IMG/VR virus record: IMGVR_UViG_3300034691_000034
Coordinates: 1 to 39,003 of that record
Source: a virus
Reading direction: 5' to 3' (one strand)
Length of the DNA: 39,003 nucleotides
Under the pieces are notes generated by a model. The model made no database searches and was not told where the DNA came from. It was given only the letters and a program-made list of their open reading frames with translations. Each line of letters begins with the position of its first letter. Position 1 is the first letter of the stretch. Both the position numbers and the translations under genes were made by a program. Of this stretch, positions 32,202 to 39,003 are shown piece by piece.

Positions 32202-32524
32202 AACAAGAACTAGAACGGCTCGAACGGCGTCAACTATCAATGCTCAGTCAGGGCGCCGCCCGGGTCGCTGGTGACTCGAAGCCGCTAAAGTCGCGTCATG
32301 AGCCGCTGAAGGGTCACGAAGCTTATCTAGACGCTCTCAGGGCGTCGGGCGCGAGTGTAGAATTGTGGACCGTTAGCTGCACCGGCCCGCTGGTCGGCAA
32401 GATCAAGTCTGCGGACAAATTCACCATCAGCCTCTTGGTCGACGGTGGAAGCTATGACGGCCGCACAATGGTGTTCTTCAAACACGCCATTGAGTCGTTC
32501 AGTCCAGTGGAGAAAGCGGTATGA
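32198..32524 (+). CDS. Hfq-like (Sm-fold) putative RNA chaperone
   Basis: 108 residues: an N-terminal basic extension (~1-38) and a core (~40-103) that follows bacterial Hfq block by block. HEAYLDALR (40-48) matches the Hfq N-terminal helix (QDPFLNALR). VELWTV..LVGKIKSADKFTI (54-77) matches the Sm1 strands (VSIYLV..LQGQIESFDQFVI). MVFFKHAIESFSP (91-103) matches Sm2 (MVYKHAISTVVP), including the Lys-His-Ala motif of the proximal RNA site. The loop before Sm2 is about four residues longer. It is coupled by ATGA overlaps to an unknown gene upstream and the helicase downstream. If correct it would form a ring that binds small RNAs or mRNA. Family call is from residue pattern alone. Confidence 0.75.
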   Translation: MKQELERLERRQLSMLSQGAARVAGDSKPLKSRHEPLKGHEAYLDALRASGASVELWTVSCTGPLVGKIKSADKFTISLLVDGGSYDGRTMVFFKHAIESFSPVEKAV

Positions 32525-33924
32525 CCGAAGTCGAAGAGGTCACAGCATCGGTCACATCCATGATCGCCACGTCGTATTCTGGTGGCTCTGCCGCTGCACC
32601 TGCCCCGGCTGAAGAGTTCGAGCCATTCGAGTTCGACGAAGACTTCCAGCGCAAGATCGCAGCCCACGTCTTGGCCGACTACAGCTTCATGCGCAGTGTG
32701 GGTCACCTGATTAAGCCGGAATACTTCGAGCAGGTCGGTGAAGCCGCCATCGTCAACATGGCAAAGAAATACTGGGACAAATACGCCGCAGTCCCGCCGA
32801 AGTCGACTCACGGTCTGCTGCTGAAGGCCGAACTTGACTCTGGCGCTATCCGCGGTGATGCGAAGTCCGAGGCTGTTGCTGCGATCAAGCGACTATGGCA
32901 AGAGGACTTGGGCGGCAGCAAGCACGTTGCCGAACAGGTAGCCGAGTTCTGCCGTCACCAAGCGATGAGCCAGGCTATTTTGAAGTCGGTGGATTATCTG
33001 GGCGCCAAGAAGTTCGAGAAGATCGAACTGGCGGTCAAAGAAGCAATCGGAATCGGCATCAGTGAGGACGGCGACGAATACGATTACTTCGAGCGCATCA
33101 ACGAGCGAACTGAAACCCGTCTGGACAAAGCGGCCGGTAAGCTCCCGCCGCAGGGCATCACCACCGGTCATCAGAAGATGGACGACGTCCTCTATCACCG
33201 TGGCTGGGGTAAGCGCGAACTGTCAGTTCTGATGGGCGGCGCGAAGACCGGTAAGACAACGGCAATGATTGGCTTCGCTAAATCAGCGTCTCTTGCTGGT
33301 AAAAACGTCCTCTACGTCACGCTTGAAGTGTCGGCGGCGATTATCTCTGACCGTCTCGATGCCTCCATGTCTGACAACATGATGAAGGAACTCGGGAAGA
33401 ACATTCACGATATTGACTCCAAGATTCGTGACATTCACAAGCGCGCCGGCTGTCTCAAGATTCACGAGTATCCACCGGGATCGTTCACCCCGAGCCAGTT
33501 GGAACGGCTCATCGAGAAATACGAAGCCAAGGGCATCATCTTTGAGCTGGTAGTGGTCGACTACGCCGACATCATGGCGCCAGACCACCGCATCAACGAT
33601 CCAATCGAAAACTCGAAGCAAACCTACATCGGTCTGCGCGCTGTAGCGTTCAACAAGAACGTGGCCGTGCTGTCTGCAACCCAAACGAACCGGGACGGGT
33701 TCAAGGCGACGGTAGCGAAAGCCGACCATATCGCCGACGACTTCAACAAGGTGCGTATCGTGGACTTGCTGATTTCGATCAACATCACCGAAGAAGAGCG
33801 GGCAAACGGGCAAGCGCGGCTGTTCTTCGCCGCCAGCCGTAACCAAGAGTCGGGCTTCACGATTTTCGTCAAGTCGGACATCAGCCGCATGATCTTTATC
33901 AAATCCATCCTCAAAATCGAATAG
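32521..33924 (+). CDS. Replicative DNA helicase (DnaB/RecA-type)
   Basis: 467 residues, starting by ATGA overlap with the Hfq-like gene. Unwinds DNA at the replication fork. The N-terminal region (~40-200) contains a DnaB-N-like helical part (RKIAAHVLADYSFMRSVGHL; EYFEQVGEAAI). The C-terminal RecA-like core has Walker A GGAKTGKTT (239-247), the segment NVLYVTLEVSAAIISDRLDA, Walker B VVVDYADIM with Asp347, and VAVLSATQTNRDG (sensor region), ending in the basic region used for DNA contact. A separate Toprim primase is coded 192 bp further on, so helicase and primase are split, unlike T7 gp4. Confidence 0.9.
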   Translation: MTEVEEVTASVTSMIATSYSGGSAAAPAPAEEFEPFEFDEDFQRKIAAHVLADYSFMRSVGHLIKPEYFEQVGEAAIVNMAKKYWDKYAAVPPKSTHGLLLKAELDSGAIRGDAKSEAVAAIKRLWQEDLGGSKHVAEQVAEFCRHQAMSQAILKSVDYLGAKKFEKIELAVKEAIGIGISEDGDEYDYFERINERTETRLDKAAGKLPPQGITTGHQKMDDVLYHRGWGKRELSVLMGGAKTGKTTAMIGFAKSASLAGKNVLYVTLEVSAAIISDRLDASMSDNMMKELGKNIHDIDSKIRDIHKRAGCLKIHEYPPGSFTPSQLERLIEKYEAKGIIFELVVVDYADIMAPDHRINDPIENSKQTYIGLRAVAFNKNVAVLSATQTNRDGFKATVAKADHIADDFNKVRIVDLLISINITEEERANGQARLFFAASRNQESGFTIFVKSDISRMIFIKSILKIE

Positions 33925-33933
33925 GTGACAGAC

Positions 33934-34035
33934 ATGGACTTTTTAGTGTTTTGGTTGATCGTTGGCGCATGCACCGGGCACTACGACAGCGCGTTTCTCA
34001 TTGCCCTGTTCGCCGCTGTGGTGTTCGGAAAATAA
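33934..34035 (+). CDS. 33-residue predicted membrane peptide
   Basis: ATG 33934 to TAA 34033-34035 codes for 33 residues with two hydrophobic stretches, MDFLVFWLIVGAC and SAFLIALFAAVVFG, separated by a short polar turn with His, Tyr and Asp. AGGTGA is five bases before the ATG, a very good ribosome binding site, and the gene is nine bases after the helicase stop and 18 bases before a terminator hairpin. These features favour a real small gene. Function unknown; small inner-membrane phage peptides can affect host physiology or superinfection, but nothing here shows which. Confidence 0.65.
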   Translation: MDFLVFWLIVGACTGHYDSAFLIALFAAVVFGK

Positions 34036-34053
34036 CCGCCAGCACGTTCCACG

Positions 34054-34077
34054 CTTAGGGCACTTCGGTGTCCTAAG
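34054..34077 (+). terminator. Hairpin terminator with TTCG loop
   Basis: 10-bp stem CTTAGGGCAC (34054-34063) / GTGTCCTAAG (34068-34077), with one G-U pair and a TTCG tetraloop, followed by TCGTTTCTGT. The T-tract is interrupted, so termination may be partial. It separates the helicase unit from the primase gene. Confidence 0.75.
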
Positions 34078-34115
34078 TCGTTTCTGTAGTCTGGTGAAAA
34101 CAGCGAGGTTCAACC

Positions 34116-35216
34116 ATGTCAGTTCACATTTCACGCCGGGGCGACGGTGACAATGATCTTGAGGAAGCAATCGCCCAGATCGACTTGGAAGCTTGGCTCG
34201 ACAGCGAGGGCGTCGAATACAAGATGGGCCGGGGTCACTCTGGCGTCCAGATCAACCTTCGCGAATGCCCACTGTGCGGGCATGACAAATGGAAAACTTA
34301 CTGTAATGCCGAGTCTGGCTTAGGCAAGTGCTTCGTTTGTGAGCAAGGTTTAAACAAATGGAAGATCATCAACGGCTTCACCCCGGGTGTCAGCGGGCGG
34401 GAGACGGTCGAACACATCAAGAACTTTGCCCGCACGCAAGGCTGGATCGCTCGCAAGAAGTCCACTGTTGCCGTGTCGGTCGAAAGCGACCTGATCATTC
34501 CAGACTCAATCGAGCTGCCGCATCACGGGCGCAACCTGCAATATCTGGACAACCGGAACATCACCGCCAGTTACAGTAAGTATTTCAACCTGAGATTCAG
34601 CCAGCGCGGCGTGTTCAACTACATCGACCATCACGGAAAGAACAAGGTTCAGCACTACGCCAACCGCGTGATCATCCCCATCTTCGACATGCAAGGCGAG
34701 CTGGTCAGCTTTCAGGGCCGGGACATCACCGGGAAAGCCGACCTGAAGTATCTGTTTCCACCGGGCTTCGCATCGACCGGCGCCCACCTCTACAACGGGC
34801 AGAACGCAATCGGGGCAAAGCGCATCGCCATCGGCGAAGGCGCGTTCGACGTGGCGGCAATCAAGATTGGCGTTGACGGGGAAATGGCGCTGCGTGACAT
34901 AGTGCCAGTGGGCACCTTCGGCAAAAGTCTGTCGTTCGGTGACGAAGACAGCCAGATCGCCAAGCTGCTGTATCTGCGCGACAAGGGCTTGGAAGAGGTG
35001 ATCTTCATATGGGACGGCGAGCCAAAAGCAATCGTCGCCGCAATCGAAGCAGCACGCCGGGTTCGCAGCATGGGTCTACGCGCCCGGGTTGCATGTCTGC
35101 CGCTCGACAAAGACCCGAACGAAATACCCGCCGAAGAGCTGCGCCGCTGCATCTGGAAGGCAACGCTGATCGACAATATGTCCGCGGTGAAGCTCCTGAT
35201 GAAGTATCAGAAATAG
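34116..35216 (+). CDS. DNA primase with zinc finger and Toprim domain
   Basis: 366 residues, synthesises RNA primers for lagging-strand replication. The N-terminal zinc-binding part has CPLCGHDKW (Cys51, Cys54) and GKCFVCEQG (Cys72, Cys75). The Toprim catalytic core has IAIGEGAFDVAAI with Glu241 and VIFIWDGEPKAI with Asp300, followed by LPLDKDPNEIP, the DnaG/T7-type KDPNE block. A helicase domain is absent; the DnaB-like helicase is separate upstream. GCGAGG precedes ATG 34116. A possible -10 box TAGTCT (34087-34092) has no good -35. Confidence 0.9.
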   Translation: MSVHISRRGDGDNDLEEAIAQIDLEAWLDSEGVEYKMGRGHSGVQINLRECPLCGHDKWKTYCNAESGLGKCFVCEQGLNKWKIINGFTPGVSGRETVEHIKNFARTQGWIARKKSTVAVSVESDLIIPDSIELPHHGRNLQYLDNRNITASYSKYFNLRFSQRGVFNYIDHHGKNKVQHYANRVIIPIFDMQGELVSFQGRDITGKADLKYLFPPGFASTGAHLYNGQNAIGAKRIAIGEGAFDVAAIKIGVDGEMALRDIVPVGTFGKSLSFGDEDSQIAKLLYLRDKGLEEVIFIWDGEPKAIVAAIEAARRVRSMGLRARVACLPLDKDPNEIPAEELRRCIWKATLIDNMSAVKLLMKYQK

Positions 35217-35278
35217 CCAGCGGTTTATCCAACATCTACTCGGTAGAGTGACTACCAGAAGTGAAAAGCGAGGCACAA

Positions 35279-35770
35279 ATGATAACGATCGAACATAAAT
35301 TCCGCGCTCACATTGGCGGGTCGAAGTTTTATGAAACAGTTCTGTTTGAGCGCGACGACGGCGGCCCGTCTGTGCTGGTGAAGCGCTTCGGTAAAATCTC
35401 ACTGGTTAGACAAGGTGGACAGACCAAGATTGAGGACTACCCGTCAGCCGCAGCCGCCCGGGCAGAAATGACCCGCATCTGGAAAGAGAAGGGCAAGCCG
35501 AGGGAATATAGCTCTACCGCGCCGTCGAGCAGTCACATTGAAAAACAGTTAGCGGAAACAGGCGGCCTGCCGTCACTGACTCTCGCCGGCCGCAAGGTTG
35601 TCATGTCAATGGCGGCAGAGCATTACGGCAAGGGCAGCGGTATGGATTACACCATCGCCGACTTCTTGAAGATGGATGACAAATACGATCCAAACGCCGA
35701 CCTCGGTGAAATCATCGAGACCGGTCCAGAAATCGAAGTTGACAGGGGTGAAACATGGGGAAGCTGGTAG
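35279..35770 (+). CDS. WGR-domain protein
   Basis: 163 residues from ATG 35279 (GCGAGG eight bases upstream; GTG 35261 is an in-frame alternative). Residues ~5-80 fit a WGR domain: HKFRAHIGGSKFYETVLFER, then VKRFGKISLVRQGGQTKIED, with the signature Trp replaced by Phe, and a final helix AAARAEMTRIWKEKGKPREY. WGR domains occur in PARPs, bacterial ligases and DNA-repair proteins and bind DNA ends or nicks. The C-terminal part is acidic. It opens the operon that leads to the ATP-dependent DNA ligase, which suggests a role in end recognition or joining. It overlaps the next gene by 16 bp. Confidence 0.75.
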   Translation: MITIEHKFRAHIGGSKFYETVLFERDDGGPSVLVKRFGKISLVRQGGQTKIEDYPSAAAARAEMTRIWKEKGKPREYSSTAPSSSHIEKQLAETGGLPSLTLAGRKVVMSMAAEHYGKGSGMDYTIADFLKMDDKYDPNADLGEIIETGPEIEVDRGETWGSW

Positions 35771-36108
35771 TTCCAAACCGAGAAACGCGGCTGAAGCTGA
35801 TGGCGGCGTTTCGCGAGGACATGAAGAAGATCGAACCTGAGCGCGACCCAAAGGACATTCACCCTTCGTTCAAGCTGAATGAACTGGTCTTCAAGTATGA
35901 GCATTCAAACTTCCTGTTCAAAGTCTGGTCGGCGGGCCGCAACACCGGCACCGTTGACGAAGAGCGCAAGAAGTTCGAAGAGCAGATTCAATACCGCCAG
36001 TTCCTCAAGCGTCACAAGGATGGCACCTATGAACTCGAATGGGTCGAAGGCCGCTGGCAGGGCTGGCTCATGCACGCCGACCTTGAGTCGGTGAGGACAA
36101 TTTCATGA
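35755..36108 (+). CDS. Unknown protein, ligase operon
   Basis: 117 residues, soluble, rich in charged and aromatic residues (FREDMKKIEPERDPKDIHPS; NELVFKYEHSNFLFKVWSAG; WVEGRWQGWLMHADLESVRT). No known motif is seen. AGGGGTGA lies five bases before ATG 35755; it starts inside the end of the WGR-domain gene and overlaps the next gene by ATGA, so it is part of the ligase operon. The C-terminal Trp-rich part resembles small domains of other phage hypothetical proteins, but I cannot name one. Confidence 0.7.
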   Translation: MGKLVVPNRETRLKLMAAFREDMKKIEPERDPKDIHPSFKLNELVFKYEHSNFLFKVWSAGRNTGTVDEERKKFEEQIQYRQFLKRHKDGTYELEWVEGRWQGWLMHADLESVRTIS

Positions 36109-36608
36109 AAAGCAGTTTTAAATTCAAAGACGCCGAGGTGTATCCGCTGGATGCCTCGAAGAGCGGCAAGAACGCCACTCACGTCAACGGCTGTCACGTC
36201 GTCGGGCAGTCGCAGCCATACGCCGCGTGCCTCAAGCGTATCGCTGACTATGAAGCCGGCGACCAGCTCGAATCCATGCGTGAATGCACCCGGGCAATCG
36301 GCGGGTCGGCGTGCCGTGCGTGGGTTATGCGTCAAGAGGAAATCAAAGCGGGCGCGTCGATTCACTTCACTAACCGCGACAAGCTGAACGCTTACGTCGG
36401 GGTTGTCGCTTCAGACCTCGCACAGCGCGTTCTGAGCAACGTTCGCCCGACGGTCGAGTCAGCACCGCCGCAATGGGCTGAAGAGTCACCAGCGGCCTTT
36501 GGTGGTTACGCAGACGCGATTAACGCCACGATTCAGACGCTGTCTAGTCCAGCGACCAGCGGTCAAACTGAACACCTCGAACCAACCAATCAGCAGGAGC
36601 AAGAATGA
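36105..36608 (+). CDS. Unknown Cys-containing protein, ligase operon
   Basis: 167 residues. The N-terminal half has four spaced cysteines in GCHVVGQSQPYAACLKRIAD, MRECTRAIGG and SACRAWVMRQEE, compatible with a zinc-binding or disulphide module. The C-terminal half is low in complexity (Ser/Pro/Gln-rich, ending NQQEQE) and probably disordered. Both ends overlap neighbours by ATGA. I do not recognise a family with certainty; its role in DNA joining is only suggested by the operon. Confidence 0.65.
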   Translation: MKSSFKFKDAEVYPLDASKSGKNATHVNGCHVVGQSQPYAACLKRIADYEAGDQLESMRECTRAIGGSACRAWVMRQEEIKAGASIHFTNRDKLNAYVGVVASDLAQRVLSNVRPTVESAPPQWAEESPAAFGGYADAINATIQTLSSPATSGQTEHLEPTNQQEQE

Positions 36609-38005
36609 ACAGCACTGAAGTTTTCCGCGCCATCGAAGAAGTCGCAGCCGCCAAGCCAAAAGATAAACTGCCGCTACTGATCAAGTATTTGGCCGACCCG
36701 ACTTTCAAGCGCGTCTGCAATGCCGCCTATAACCCATTCGTCACCTTCGGTCAACGCCCGGGCCGCGTATCTGGTCATGGTAAAGATGGCTTCACCGACG
36801 AGACGTGGAAAATCTTCGGCGACCTTGCGAACCGCCGCCTGACCGGTAACGACGCCAAGGGCGAGCTTGACCGCGCAATGCACCAGATGGAACCCGATTC
36901 GGCAGAGCTGTTTTGGCGCATCGTGAACAAAGACCTAAAAGCCGGCTTCAGCGAAGGCACGCTGAACAAAGCGCTGAAGGGTTTCATTCCTGAATTCCCT
37001 TACATGCGCTGCACGCTCAGCAAAGACGTTGACTTCAGCAAGTGGGAATGGGAAGAGGGCGTAATCAGCCAAGTAAAGGCCGATGGCCGCTTCACCAACG
37101 TCAACGTCGAGCTGGACGGTAGCGTGTCGATGACCTCTCGCCAAGGTATGCCGATGCCAGTCGAGAAATTCGGCCGCATTGAAGCTGACCTGAAGACCTA
37201 CGGCATTCGCGGCACCCAGTCGCACGGTGAAATGCTGGTCATCGGCCCGGACGGCGGCTTCCTACCCCGTGCAATTGGTAACGGCATGATCACCGAGGTT
37301 GTGGACGGCGGCGAGTTCGCCAAGGGTTACACCCCAATCCTGCAACTGTGGGACAACATCCCGCTGACCAGCGTTGTAGCCAAAGGCACCTGCGAAACCC
37401 CATACGCGCAGCGTCTCGCCGGGATTATGAAAGCCTTCGCCCAGTGCGAGACCGTCAAGATCGTGGAAACCAAGATCGTCAAGTCGCTGACCGAAGCCAT
37501 CGCTCACTTCCTTAACGCGGTTACCCGTGGCCTGGAAGGCACCGTCGTGAAGCGCAAGCGCGGAATCTGGAAAGACACCGGTGGCAGCGGCTCCCCTGAT
37601 CAGGTCAAGATGAAGGTGGACTGCGACGTCGAGTTGAAGATCATCGGCTACCGCGAAGGCAAGGAAGGCTCCAAGCGTGCTTCGTCCATCGGCGCGCTTG
37701 AGCTGTCGTCTGAATGCGGCCTGCTGACTGTGGGCGCTGGGTCTGGTCTGAAAGACGCCGACCTCGCCAAGTTCGACACCCAGGAGAAGCGTGACGCGGC
37801 TCTGGGCGGCATCGTGACCATTCGTTTCAACGACATCATGGAGCCGAGCGAGTCGAACGAGTTGCACAGCCTGTTCCTGCCGCGTGTGATTGAATTCCGC
37901 AGCGACAAAACCACCGCTGACACGCTCGAACAGATCAAAGCCGTGTTTGAAGAAGCCAAGTCCGGGAAAGCGCTGCTCGAAGGCGGTAAGAAGGCCAAGA
38001 AATGA
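36605..38005 (+). CDS. ATP-dependent DNA ligase
   Basis: 466 residues, seals nicks during replication and repair. Nucleotidyltransferase motifs are in order: motif I VKADGRF with the adenylated Lys158, ELDGSVSMTSRQGMPMPVEK (region Ia/III), HGEMLVIG with the metal-binding Glu, GLEGTVVKRKRG (motif IV) and VKMKVDCDVELKIIGYREG (motif V), followed by a C-terminal OB-fold (GGIVTIRFNDIMEP). T7 ligase is shorter (~360), so the N-terminal ~140-residue helical domain is an added DNA-binding part. It starts by ATGA overlap with the previous gene. Confidence 0.93.
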   Translation: MNSTEVFRAIEEVAAAKPKDKLPLLIKYLADPTFKRVCNAAYNPFVTFGQRPGRVSGHGKDGFTDETWKIFGDLANRRLTGNDAKGELDRAMHQMEPDSAELFWRIVNKDLKAGFSEGTLNKALKGFIPEFPYMRCTLSKDVDFSKWEWEEGVISQVKADGRFTNVNVELDGSVSMTSRQGMPMPVEKFGRIEADLKTYGIRGTQSHGEMLVIGPDGGFLPRAIGNGMITEVVDGGEFAKGYTPILQLWDNIPLTSVVAKGTCETPYAQRLAGIMKAFAQCETVKIVETKIVKSLTEAIAHFLNAVTRGLEGTVVKRKRGIWKDTGGSGSPDQVKMKVDCDVELKIIGYREGKEGSKRASSIGALELSSECGLLTVGAGSGLKDADLAKFDTQEKRDAALGGIVTIRFNDIMEPSESNELHSLFLPRVIEFRSDKTTADTLEQIKAVFEEAKSGKALLEGGKKAKK

Positions 38006-38394
38006 GCCTGACGCACGGGAACTTCTTCACTCACGCCCGGGCACAGGTCAACCACATGACAGGCGGCGTTGACCTGTGCTTGATTCACACGATTGGCGGA
38101 AAGGACTATGACGTCCAACTTTTAAAGTCGCCGAACGAATCACCACCCGGCTCATGTCATGTTTCGCACACGCTTCAATACTCAGAAGCGCAGCTACTGC
38201 TCGACGCGCTTCTGGGAGCCGGCATGAAGCCGACCGTTGCCATGACAGAAGAGAAGACAGAAGCGTTTTCTGCTGGCAAAGTGGAAGCTATGACGGCGCA
38301 CCTTGCAGACCTGCGCCGGTTAGCGTTCGGTCGGGAACCTGAAGAAATTCAGCTATCGGCCGACACTCCACGAACCAGAGCGGACATGATATGA
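38002..38394 (+). CDS. Unknown small protein after ligase
   Basis: 130 residues, not recognised. The first ~55 residues look beta-rich (GVDLCLIHTIGGKDYDVQLL), followed by helices (SEAQLLLDALLGAG; GKVEAMTAHLADLRRLAFGR) and a polar tail. No catalytic or membrane motif. It starts by ATGA overlap with the ligase gene and ends by ATGA overlap with the next gene. Confidence 0.68.
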   Translation: MSLTHGNFFTHARAQVNHMTGGVDLCLIHTIGGKDYDVQLLKSPNESPPGSCHVSHTLQYSEAQLLLDALLGAGMKPTVAMTEEKTEAFSAGKVEAMTAHLADLRRLAFGREPEEIQLSADTPRTRADMI

Positions 38395-38594
38395 CTGAAG
38401 AAGAGTGGCAAAAGGCAAAAAGCACGTTCCCTTGGCGACATCAAGTCGTCCAAAACGGTATCGGCGGTCAGGTGTTTGTCTTCGACAACGCCGGCGCTGA
38501 AGTGCCACTATTCACCATGATTGCGGTCACCGAAAGGCTGACCATCGCTATCGCAAACAAAGCGGCACGCGCCGCCGAAGAGGCCAAAGAATGA
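38391..38594 (+). CDS. Unknown small protein, end of ligase operon
   Basis: 67 residues: a short N-terminal helix (TEEEWQKAKSTFPWRH), two or three strands (GGQVFVFDNAGAEVPLF) and a C-terminal helix rich in Ala/Glu. Function unknown. Last gene of the operon; a strong terminator begins 39 bp downstream. The ATGA overlap with the previous gene supports that it is real. Confidence 0.65.
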   Translation: MTEEEWQKAKSTFPWRHQVVQNGIGGQVFVFDNAGAEVPLFTMIAVTERLTIAIANKAARAAEEAKE

Positions 38595-38632
38595 TTGGAG
38601 TTGGCGCAGGTTAAACCATAGCTGTAACCCAC

Positions 38633-38661
38633 GAGGCGCTTTCATAGCGCCTCTTTTATTT
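38633..38661 (+). terminator. Rho-independent terminator after ligase operon
   Basis: Perfect 8-bp stem GAGGCGCT (38633-38640) / AGCGCCTC (38646-38653), 5-base loop, then TTTTATTT. Confidence 0.93.
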
Positions 38662-38686
38662 CATGTATTGTCCTGCCCCCGCTCAA

Positions 38687-38692
38687 TAGAAT
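38687..38692 (+). promoter_or_regulatory. Candidate -10 box for the last gene
   Basis: TAGAAT (5/6 match to TATAAT) 33 bp before the start codon and just after a terminator. The only good -35 (TTGTCC, 38668-38673) is 13 bp away, too close, so the promoter is uncertain. Confidence 0.25.
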
Positions 38693-38725
38693 TGACCTAC
38701 TTTCAACACACCCGAGACCCATCGC

Positions 38726-39003
38726 ATGAAAATGAAGAATGATCGAATCTTCGTCCTTCGCGAAGCCATTGTGATTATTGCCCAGATGCTTTCTGGCTCT
38801 GGCATCAAGGTTACCCAGCGCGGCATCAGCGCCTACGTCGAACCAGACGCAACCGGCAAGCCAGTGCTGATCAACCTGCCGTATATCCCTGACAACGCGA
38901 CCGAAGAGCTTTGCGAAGCGATTCAGGGCTTCCTCGATCATGAAGTGGCTCACTGTCTGTTCACCGACTTCAAAGCGGCCAACAAGGTTGCGAAGAACCC
39001 GCC
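38726..39003 (+). CDS. Putative HExxH metalloprotein (3' partial)
   Basis: ATG 38726 opens a frame that runs without a stop to the right edge (92 codons visible). The visible part has MKMKNDRIFVLREAIVIIAQ, GIKVTQRGISAYVEPDATGK and then FLDHEVAHCLFTDF, with His72, Glu73 and His76 forming an HExxH zinc motif. The pattern recalls phage proteins that pair such an N-terminal HExxH domain with a later VWA/CobT-like domain and often lie beside an AAA+ (MoxR-like) ATPase. The second part and neighbours are outside the window, so the full identity is open. Confidence 0.75.
   Translation, partial: MKMKNDRIFVLREAIVIIAQMLSGSGIKVTQRGISAYVEPDATGKPVLINLPYIPDNATEELCEAIQGFLDHEVAHCLFTDFKAANKVAKNP

Follow-up and report, generated by a model that had tools for sequence, protein, structure and literature searches.

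The viral DNA of IMG/VR record IMGVR_UViG_3300034691_000034 (positions 1 to 39,003; this whole stretch of 39,003 nucleotides is hereafter the window) carries, at 35279..35770 on the plus strand, a gene coding for a 163-amino-acid protein with a WGR domain. Between the genes for a DnaG-type primase and a T4-type ATP-dependent DNA ligase, this gene and a second one, p3, were found to keep the same order in related phages. The WGR protein ends in a C-terminal tag, aromatic-Gly-x-aromatic, which is shared with 33 other BLAST families in these phages and of which the spelling tends to be genome-specific. The WGR domain itself is not new, as public records already annotate WGR proteins of Rhizobium phages. 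Literature searches that combined WGR with phage or ligase, or were directed at these phages or at the tag, found nothing on this system, which is not proof of absence; in the literature searched, the conserved p3/ligase linkage and the shared genome-specific tag did not turn up.

Conserved gene order and identity of the WGR protein

The order primase-WGR-p3-ligase was complete in 26 of the 28 loci that code for a protein in the slot between primase and p3, and locus L077 became the 27th once more of its record was read (L140). The sole failure, which is counted in the 28, is the locus on plasmid pRlX6 of Rhizobium beringeri (L082), where the frames of helicase, primase, WGR/p3 and ligase are broken, by decay or sequencing errors. 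Twenty-one of the 28 loci were found through WGR or the tag irrespective of neighbours, and the order was present in 20 of these 21; the remaining seven were the window itself, RHph_X66 and nickie, which came from DNA similarity to the primase-ligase region, and four Nickieviruses, detected via p3. Many of the records are close relatives, and near-duplicate phages are included in these counts. The order was kept among ligases as divergent as 23-26% identity (A3).

Besides metagenome fragments, the carriers comprise phages and phage-plasmids, about 110-120 kb in size, of Methylobacterium, Pseudomonas and relatives of Rhizobium. The order was observed in the Rhizobium phages RHph_X66, RHEph10, RHph_N1_10 and B1VFA, in nine of 10 IMG/VR contigs taken from a scan for the tag, in circular plasmid records of 115-119 kb from Sinorhizobium, Methylobacterium (two), Shinella and Pararhizobium, and, with a divergent slot protein, in Nickievirus. 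Six circular Hyphomicrobiales plasmid records of 115-119 kb (L079-L084) carry the cluster; repC was detected in four of them, within the stretch read, and all six look like phage-plasmids. When grouped by eye, the carriers form roughly the following distinct branches: the window group, Nickievirus, the RHEph10 group, the X66/LM21 group, G004, G011, G010/Shinella and Methylobacterium. A WGR domain of the PF05406 type is retained in distant branches. A weaker call is made for the Nickievirus slot proteins, as PF05406 misses four of the five and hairong scores below the cut-off; their assignment as WGR is suggested by a W-G-K alignment, a profile comparison with a probability of 61, and single-linkage BLAST with other members. 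A genome-collection scan with one WGR protein, which reaches close relatives only, gave no relative, though the collection includes a Phyllobacterium contig.

The open reading frame (ORF) of the window WGR protein starts with ATG at 35279, and an in-frame GTG is located upstream at 35261. The protein matched PF05406 with 26.6 bits (E 6.6e-6; gathering cut-off 22), membership being decided by this profile cut-off and not by the W-G-R tripeptide. By profile search of the record itself and by alignments, the matched domain was located at 35318..35509 (+), with the signature R-F-G-K at residues 36-39. A profile of eight phage WGR members detected in PDB the WGR domain of human PARP3 (2eoc, E 1.1e-9), followed by 2ra8 and the WGR domains of PARP1 and PARP2; the window sequence alone, without profile, gave zero matches there. 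The AlphaFold model showed a mean confidence score (pLDDT) of 66.5, with 62-88 in the WGR blocks. In the Foldseek comparison using this model, rows 1-15 were all PARP1 or PARP2 chains, with weak scores (best E 8e-3, none below 1e-3). In the VIA comparison, 2ra8 and PARPs were on top, the PARP chains having Z scores of 4.0-5.6 with an unrelated SAGA subunit (5.3) interspersed. Taken from the model and these modest scores, a WGR fold is likely.

The first-pass annotation of this DNA had proposed a WGR-like module at the head of the gene run and had staked the proposal, among other points, on a WGR fold and on a conserved linkage with the ligase gene. The module was supported by the PF05406 score and the PARP-WGR profile matches, the fold by the lead of PARP chains in the structure comparisons, and the linkage by 27 of the 28 loci. 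The replacement of the signature Trp by Phe, also claimed there, proved correct, and Arg is in addition replaced by Lys, so that the window reads F-G-K in place of W-G-R. Phe was also found in L004, L012 and L072, W-G-R in L073, and W-G-K in the remaining aligned members. WGR is the sole Pfam match within the 163 residues, an ADP-ribosyltransferase domain being absent among the matches. The C-terminal end shows low model confidence and is probably disordered.

A C-terminal tag with genome-specific spelling

Neither the C-terminal tag nor the location inside a replication cluster with DnaB and DnaG genes had been noted in the first-pass annotation. The codons for W-G-S-W and the stop lie at 35756..35770 (+), as identified from the sequence, an ORF-end scan and a pattern scan. 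The tag ends 27 of the 28 slot proteins, the exception being the frame-disrupted locus; in Nickievirus, one extra Gly follows it. An ORF-end scan of the plus strand of RHEph10 (100 kb) detected seven tag ends, all seven at annotated genes. Among 119 greedily chosen RHEph10 genes, three tags were observed against about 0.05 expected from the frequency of the motif within ORFs, a rough control in that the greedy choice retained three of the seven tagged genes.

For the F/Y pattern in four Rhizobium phages, 7, 7, 9 and 8 matches were found on the coding strand (the second and third counts each including one match that ends in TGG, not stop), 0 on the opposite strand, and 0-2 with a reversed-pattern control. 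Three plasmid records gave 5, 7 and 9 matches versus 0, and two Methylobacterium records gave none. Ten of the 30 distinct contigs of the IMG/VR tag scan, namely all of at least 37 kb minus two already analysed, gave 2-9 matches on the main strand versus 0-2 on its complement, the control giving 0-4. Some F/Y matches in these whole-record scans end in TGG. Within IMG/VR, a control pattern of reordered letters matched one stretch versus 35 for the real pattern. Records obtained with the pattern Y..NP.FG.F favour F-type tags; W-type records came via WGR or p3 searches.

A total of 87 tags, decoded in 19 records, fell into 34 BLAST families, 33 besides WGR. The families were defined by single-linkage BLAST at 1e-4 after removal of the last 14 residues, and some of them might join under a more sensitive comparison; two of the tagged proteins of RHEph10 are mutually related. 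Matches ending in TGG or outside a 40-residue open stretch were dropped before decoding (for example G000 14654 and G009 107131), and G001, G003, G005, G007, G012, G013, W03, W08-W10 and W12 were left out (a few of W03 being read). For the second most widespread tagged family, present in 14 records, the RHEph10 member had no Pfam or PHROG match, and an alignment of seven of the 14 members found no match in PDB (best E 4.9). A 164-residue protein of G008 (L099) carries the tag twice at its end, YEANPIFGAF and then LIPNFGAF, in what looks like a duplication. The PhoH-like protein of pLM21S1 (L079:202-969) also terminates in FGRF.

Within a record, the different families tend towards a common spelling of the tag, which differs between genomes. 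FGRF/YGRF was found in RHEph10, N1_10, G010, G006, Shinella and Pararhizobium, FGAF or FGGF in LM21, X66 and G008, FGMF/FGIF in G004, G009 and G011, and WGxW or WGMF in Methylobacterium. Exceptions are often the WGR protein itself, as YGRF in X66 and LM21, FGRF in G008 and FGMF in RHEph10. Similarity, taken as the mean over the three variable positions, was 0.755 between tags of different families within a record, compared with 0.612 after tags were swapped among genomes inside each family, and 0 of 5000 such shuffles reached 0.755. The same test gave 0.743 versus 0.581 on 13 records (0/5000) and, more narrowly, 0.773 versus 0.616 on 9 records (0/5000; largest shuffle 0.769).

Neighbouring genes

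The genes for helicase, primase, WGR protein, p2, p3, ligase and CobT-like protein are on the plus strand. Upstream of the WGR gene, a DnaB-like replicative helicase is encoded at 32521..33924 (phrog_19, E 2.1e-75; PF03796, E 1.5e-11) and the DnaG-type primase, identified also by locus order, at 34116..35216 (phrog_47, E 7.7e-50; PF08275, E 1.3e-9). Downstream follow p2 (35755..36108), p3 (36105..36608) and the ligase (36605..38005), the four genes from WGR to ligase overlapping successively by 16, 4 and 4 bases. The extent of 35279-38005 and the overlapping genes given in the first-pass annotation were thus confirmed. Its claim that the operon ends in a ligase holds as to the ligase, but further ORFs follow at 38002-38394 and 38391-38594, and then a CobT-like gene, of which only the start is included (38726..39001, continuing past the window end; phrog_1576, E 1e-38).

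The ligase matched phrog_114 over its whole length (E 1.4e-96) and also PF01068, and carries K-A-D-G at K158. Its best match in PDB was 6dt1 (E 4.4e-32), and residues 9-126 matched 5wfy (E 5e-4), both listed as DNA ligase; we take 6dt1 to be T4 ligase and 5wfy to be its DNA-binding domain. The N-terminal DNA-binding domain (about residues 9-126), described earlier as extra, is therefore ordinary for the T4-type family. Residues K158, D160, G161, E311, K335 and K337 were invariant in nine of nine aligned ligases, as expected of a nucleotidyltransferase core with K-x-D-G and further catalytic motifs.

Both small proteins between WGR and ligase had been placed in the operon as unknowns; p3 is conserved, but p2 is not a kept part of the set. 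The p3 protein belongs to phrog_4558 (E 1e-21), and its cysteines C30, C42, C61 and C70 were invariant in all 15 aligned homologues, on account of which we infer that it may bind metal. A structural identity of p3 was sought and rejected, the model being unusable (mean pLDDT 38.7) and the best profile match in PDB (E 1.1) not credible. The 117-residue p2 had no family above cut-off in Pfam or PHROG scans; its C-terminal stretch resembles proteins of three phage records, and its start codon overlaps the WGR tag codons. It is absent in L012 and was the best match in none of the 15 loci compared. In RHEph10-type phages its position is taken by a different protein, mostly of 88-90 residues, which is itself tagged.

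Proposed role and comparison with known systems

Our tentative reading of the sequence, to which we give slightly less than an even chance, is that the WGR protein might assist the ligase by sensing nicks or ends, with its tail bound to a hub that the phage itself encodes. It would serve the replication and nick-sealing machinery of the phage itself: the WGR domain would recognize nicks or 5'-phosphorylated ends, like the WGR domains of PARP2 and PARP3, and the protein would hold or present these ends to the T4-type ligase from the same gene run. Candidate substrates are Okazaki nicks, recombination nicks and the circularisation of the injected genome. The tag, aromatic-Gly-x-aromatic-COOH, would tether the protein to the putative hub, which may also recruit other small phage proteins with the same tag. 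DNA-end binding, help to the ligase, and the existence and identity of the hub are what we infer here. As the tag is common to many otherwise unrelated proteins of sister viruses, the WGR protein may plug into a shared hub. With a somewhat better than even chance, a docking code may operate, in which a phage-encoded receptor reads the tag of a set of mostly unrelated proteins, numbering two to eight or more in each genome and with the WGR protein as the most widely kept; receptor and tags would co-evolve and give each phage its own spelling, and the slot between primase and ligase would accept different domains if the tag is kept.

Genes for single-strand-binding protein (SSB) and CobT-like protein were each detected in all 11 records searched, ANB28 included, so that presence singles out neither as the hub. 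The SSB of RHEph10 (L018:45701-46642) has clustered cysteines and an acidic tail at its C terminus, but no aromatic tag. A host origin of the tag was tried and rejected: the strict spelling Y..NP.FG[R/S]F plus TGA stop, the one spelling sought in hosts, gave four hits in the bacterial genome collection, against a hand estimate of about four by chance. One of the four is the phage-plasmid-sized Phyllobacterium contig of 118,187 bases. Such near-chance hits, one of them of phage-plasmid size, may point to a phage-encoded partner of the tag.

Several observations weigh against this reading of an end-sensing ligase accessory that is docked by a tag. Stenotrophomonas phages ANB28 and BUCTxx99 carry primase-p3-ligase with zero genes between primase and p3, and PF05406 detected no WGR in either, although the same search also misses four of the five Nickieviruses; the T4-type ligase can accordingly do without a WGR protein. 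Both the Trp and the Arg of the signature are altered in the window protein. The degenerate W-type pattern showed no excess over control (W13: 4 and 3 versus 3 and 6), so that W-type tags rest on the reading of ORF ends (three in W13, five in W14). Three Nickieviruses searched show one tag beside that of WGR, and the two differ (similarity 0.33). In G009, without PF05406 match, the primase-p3 slot (L139:3873-5197) encodes two 220-residue proteins with no recognisable WGR, both tagged (EYFGMF and PEFGIF); the WGR-family profile reports one of them, in an alignment limited to the C-terminal part. The slot may thus keep the tag rather than end sensing.

This last case leads to the strongest rival, in which the tag is essential and the domain exchangeable: the slot protein would be a tethered adaptor, with WGR used for contacts with protein or RNA, and adjacency to the ligase would merely reflect a shared replication operon. 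It agrees with G009, where tag and position are retained, with F and K in the window signature, and with the 33 tagged families other than WGR. We consider it rather unlikely, as the closest PDB sequences are WGR domains, mostly of PARP1-3, and as PF05406-type WGR persists in distant branches. According to passages of one report (PMC8150716), PARP WGR domains bind DNA breaks, contacting nicks and 5'-phosphorylated ends.

Less probable still is that the tag is a signal for sorting or stability, such as capsid packaging or recognition by a protease or a CobS/CobT-like AAA+ pair, and not a docking peptide of the replisome. The six other tagged RHEph10 proteins, which matched no known family in Pfam or PHROG and are scattered over the genome, would suit such a signal, as would the CobT-like genes in 11 of 11 records. 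However, ANB28 possesses CobT and shows no excess of the F/Y pattern (two matches on its coding strand, including one non-stop; control 6 and 1), and every intact locus with a slot protein has a tagged protein in its replication cluster.

An end-joining or end-protection set, as suggested in the first-pass annotation, appears improbable; in it, WGR would keep double-strand ends in place for the ligase or guard them against nucleases of the host. PARP2 WGR bridges double-strand breaks (passages of PMC8150716), and several relatives are circular plasmid records, indicating that those relatives close their genomes; the DnaB-DnaG setting, however, fits nick sealing as well, and PADLOC gave no match of note, only two weak ones (E 0.015 and 0.04). 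A Pfam scan of the nine proteins of 32521-39001 detected no Ku. Finally, an origin of the tags as a side effect of ribosome-binding sites or of overlapping next-gene starts is hardly credible: a Shine-Dalgarno-like run is present in 21 of the 87 tags, 35 of the 46 tags whose downstream sequence is long enough have ATG or GTG close behind, and the window tag codons overlap the p2 start, but 66 of the 87 lack such a run, three of the seven tagged RHEph10 genes have 73-96 free bases before the next gene, and codon use is mixed (all four Gly and five Arg codons), which indicates that the constraint acts on residues.

The end-sensing accessory reading provides a directly testable set of partners for an uncharacterised phage WGR protein. 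If true, a shared tag with phage-specific spelling would identify functionally unassigned proteins as clients of a single hub; once found, this hub would allow dozens of hypothetical proteins to be assigned together, and the tag could be a possible peptide for recruiting proteins to the phage replisome.

As compared with known systems, the window ligase is like other T4-type phage ligases (phrog_114) in its whole-length match and N-terminal DNA-binding domain, with nothing notable besides its conserved neighbours. The RHEph10/pLM21S1 group of phage-plasmids has the same gene cluster. The plasmid pLM21S1 is a phage-plasmid related to RHEph10 (passages of PMC5537653 and PMC4447125), and the term WGR occurs 0 times in the main texts of these two papers. 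With the C-terminal docking tails of T7 gp2.5 and bacterial SSB, the tag shares a flexible end, a final aromatic residue and a replication-cluster protein as its bearer; the C-terminal phenylalanine of gp2.5 is required by T7 polymerase at a nick, as worded in a title within the reference list of PMC9917605. In contrast to these tails, the aromatic-Gly-x-aromatic tag is a sequence pattern that sits on many unrelated proteins in phage-specific spelling, its partner being putative. With the PF05406 family, including PARP1-3 and bacterial WGR proteins, the window protein shares a profile score above cut-off, a similar model and the closest PDB sequences. It differs from them in having no second recognised domain, F-G-K in place of W-G-R, and a tagged C-terminal tail, and is thus a possible stand-alone phage counterpart of break sensing by PARP.

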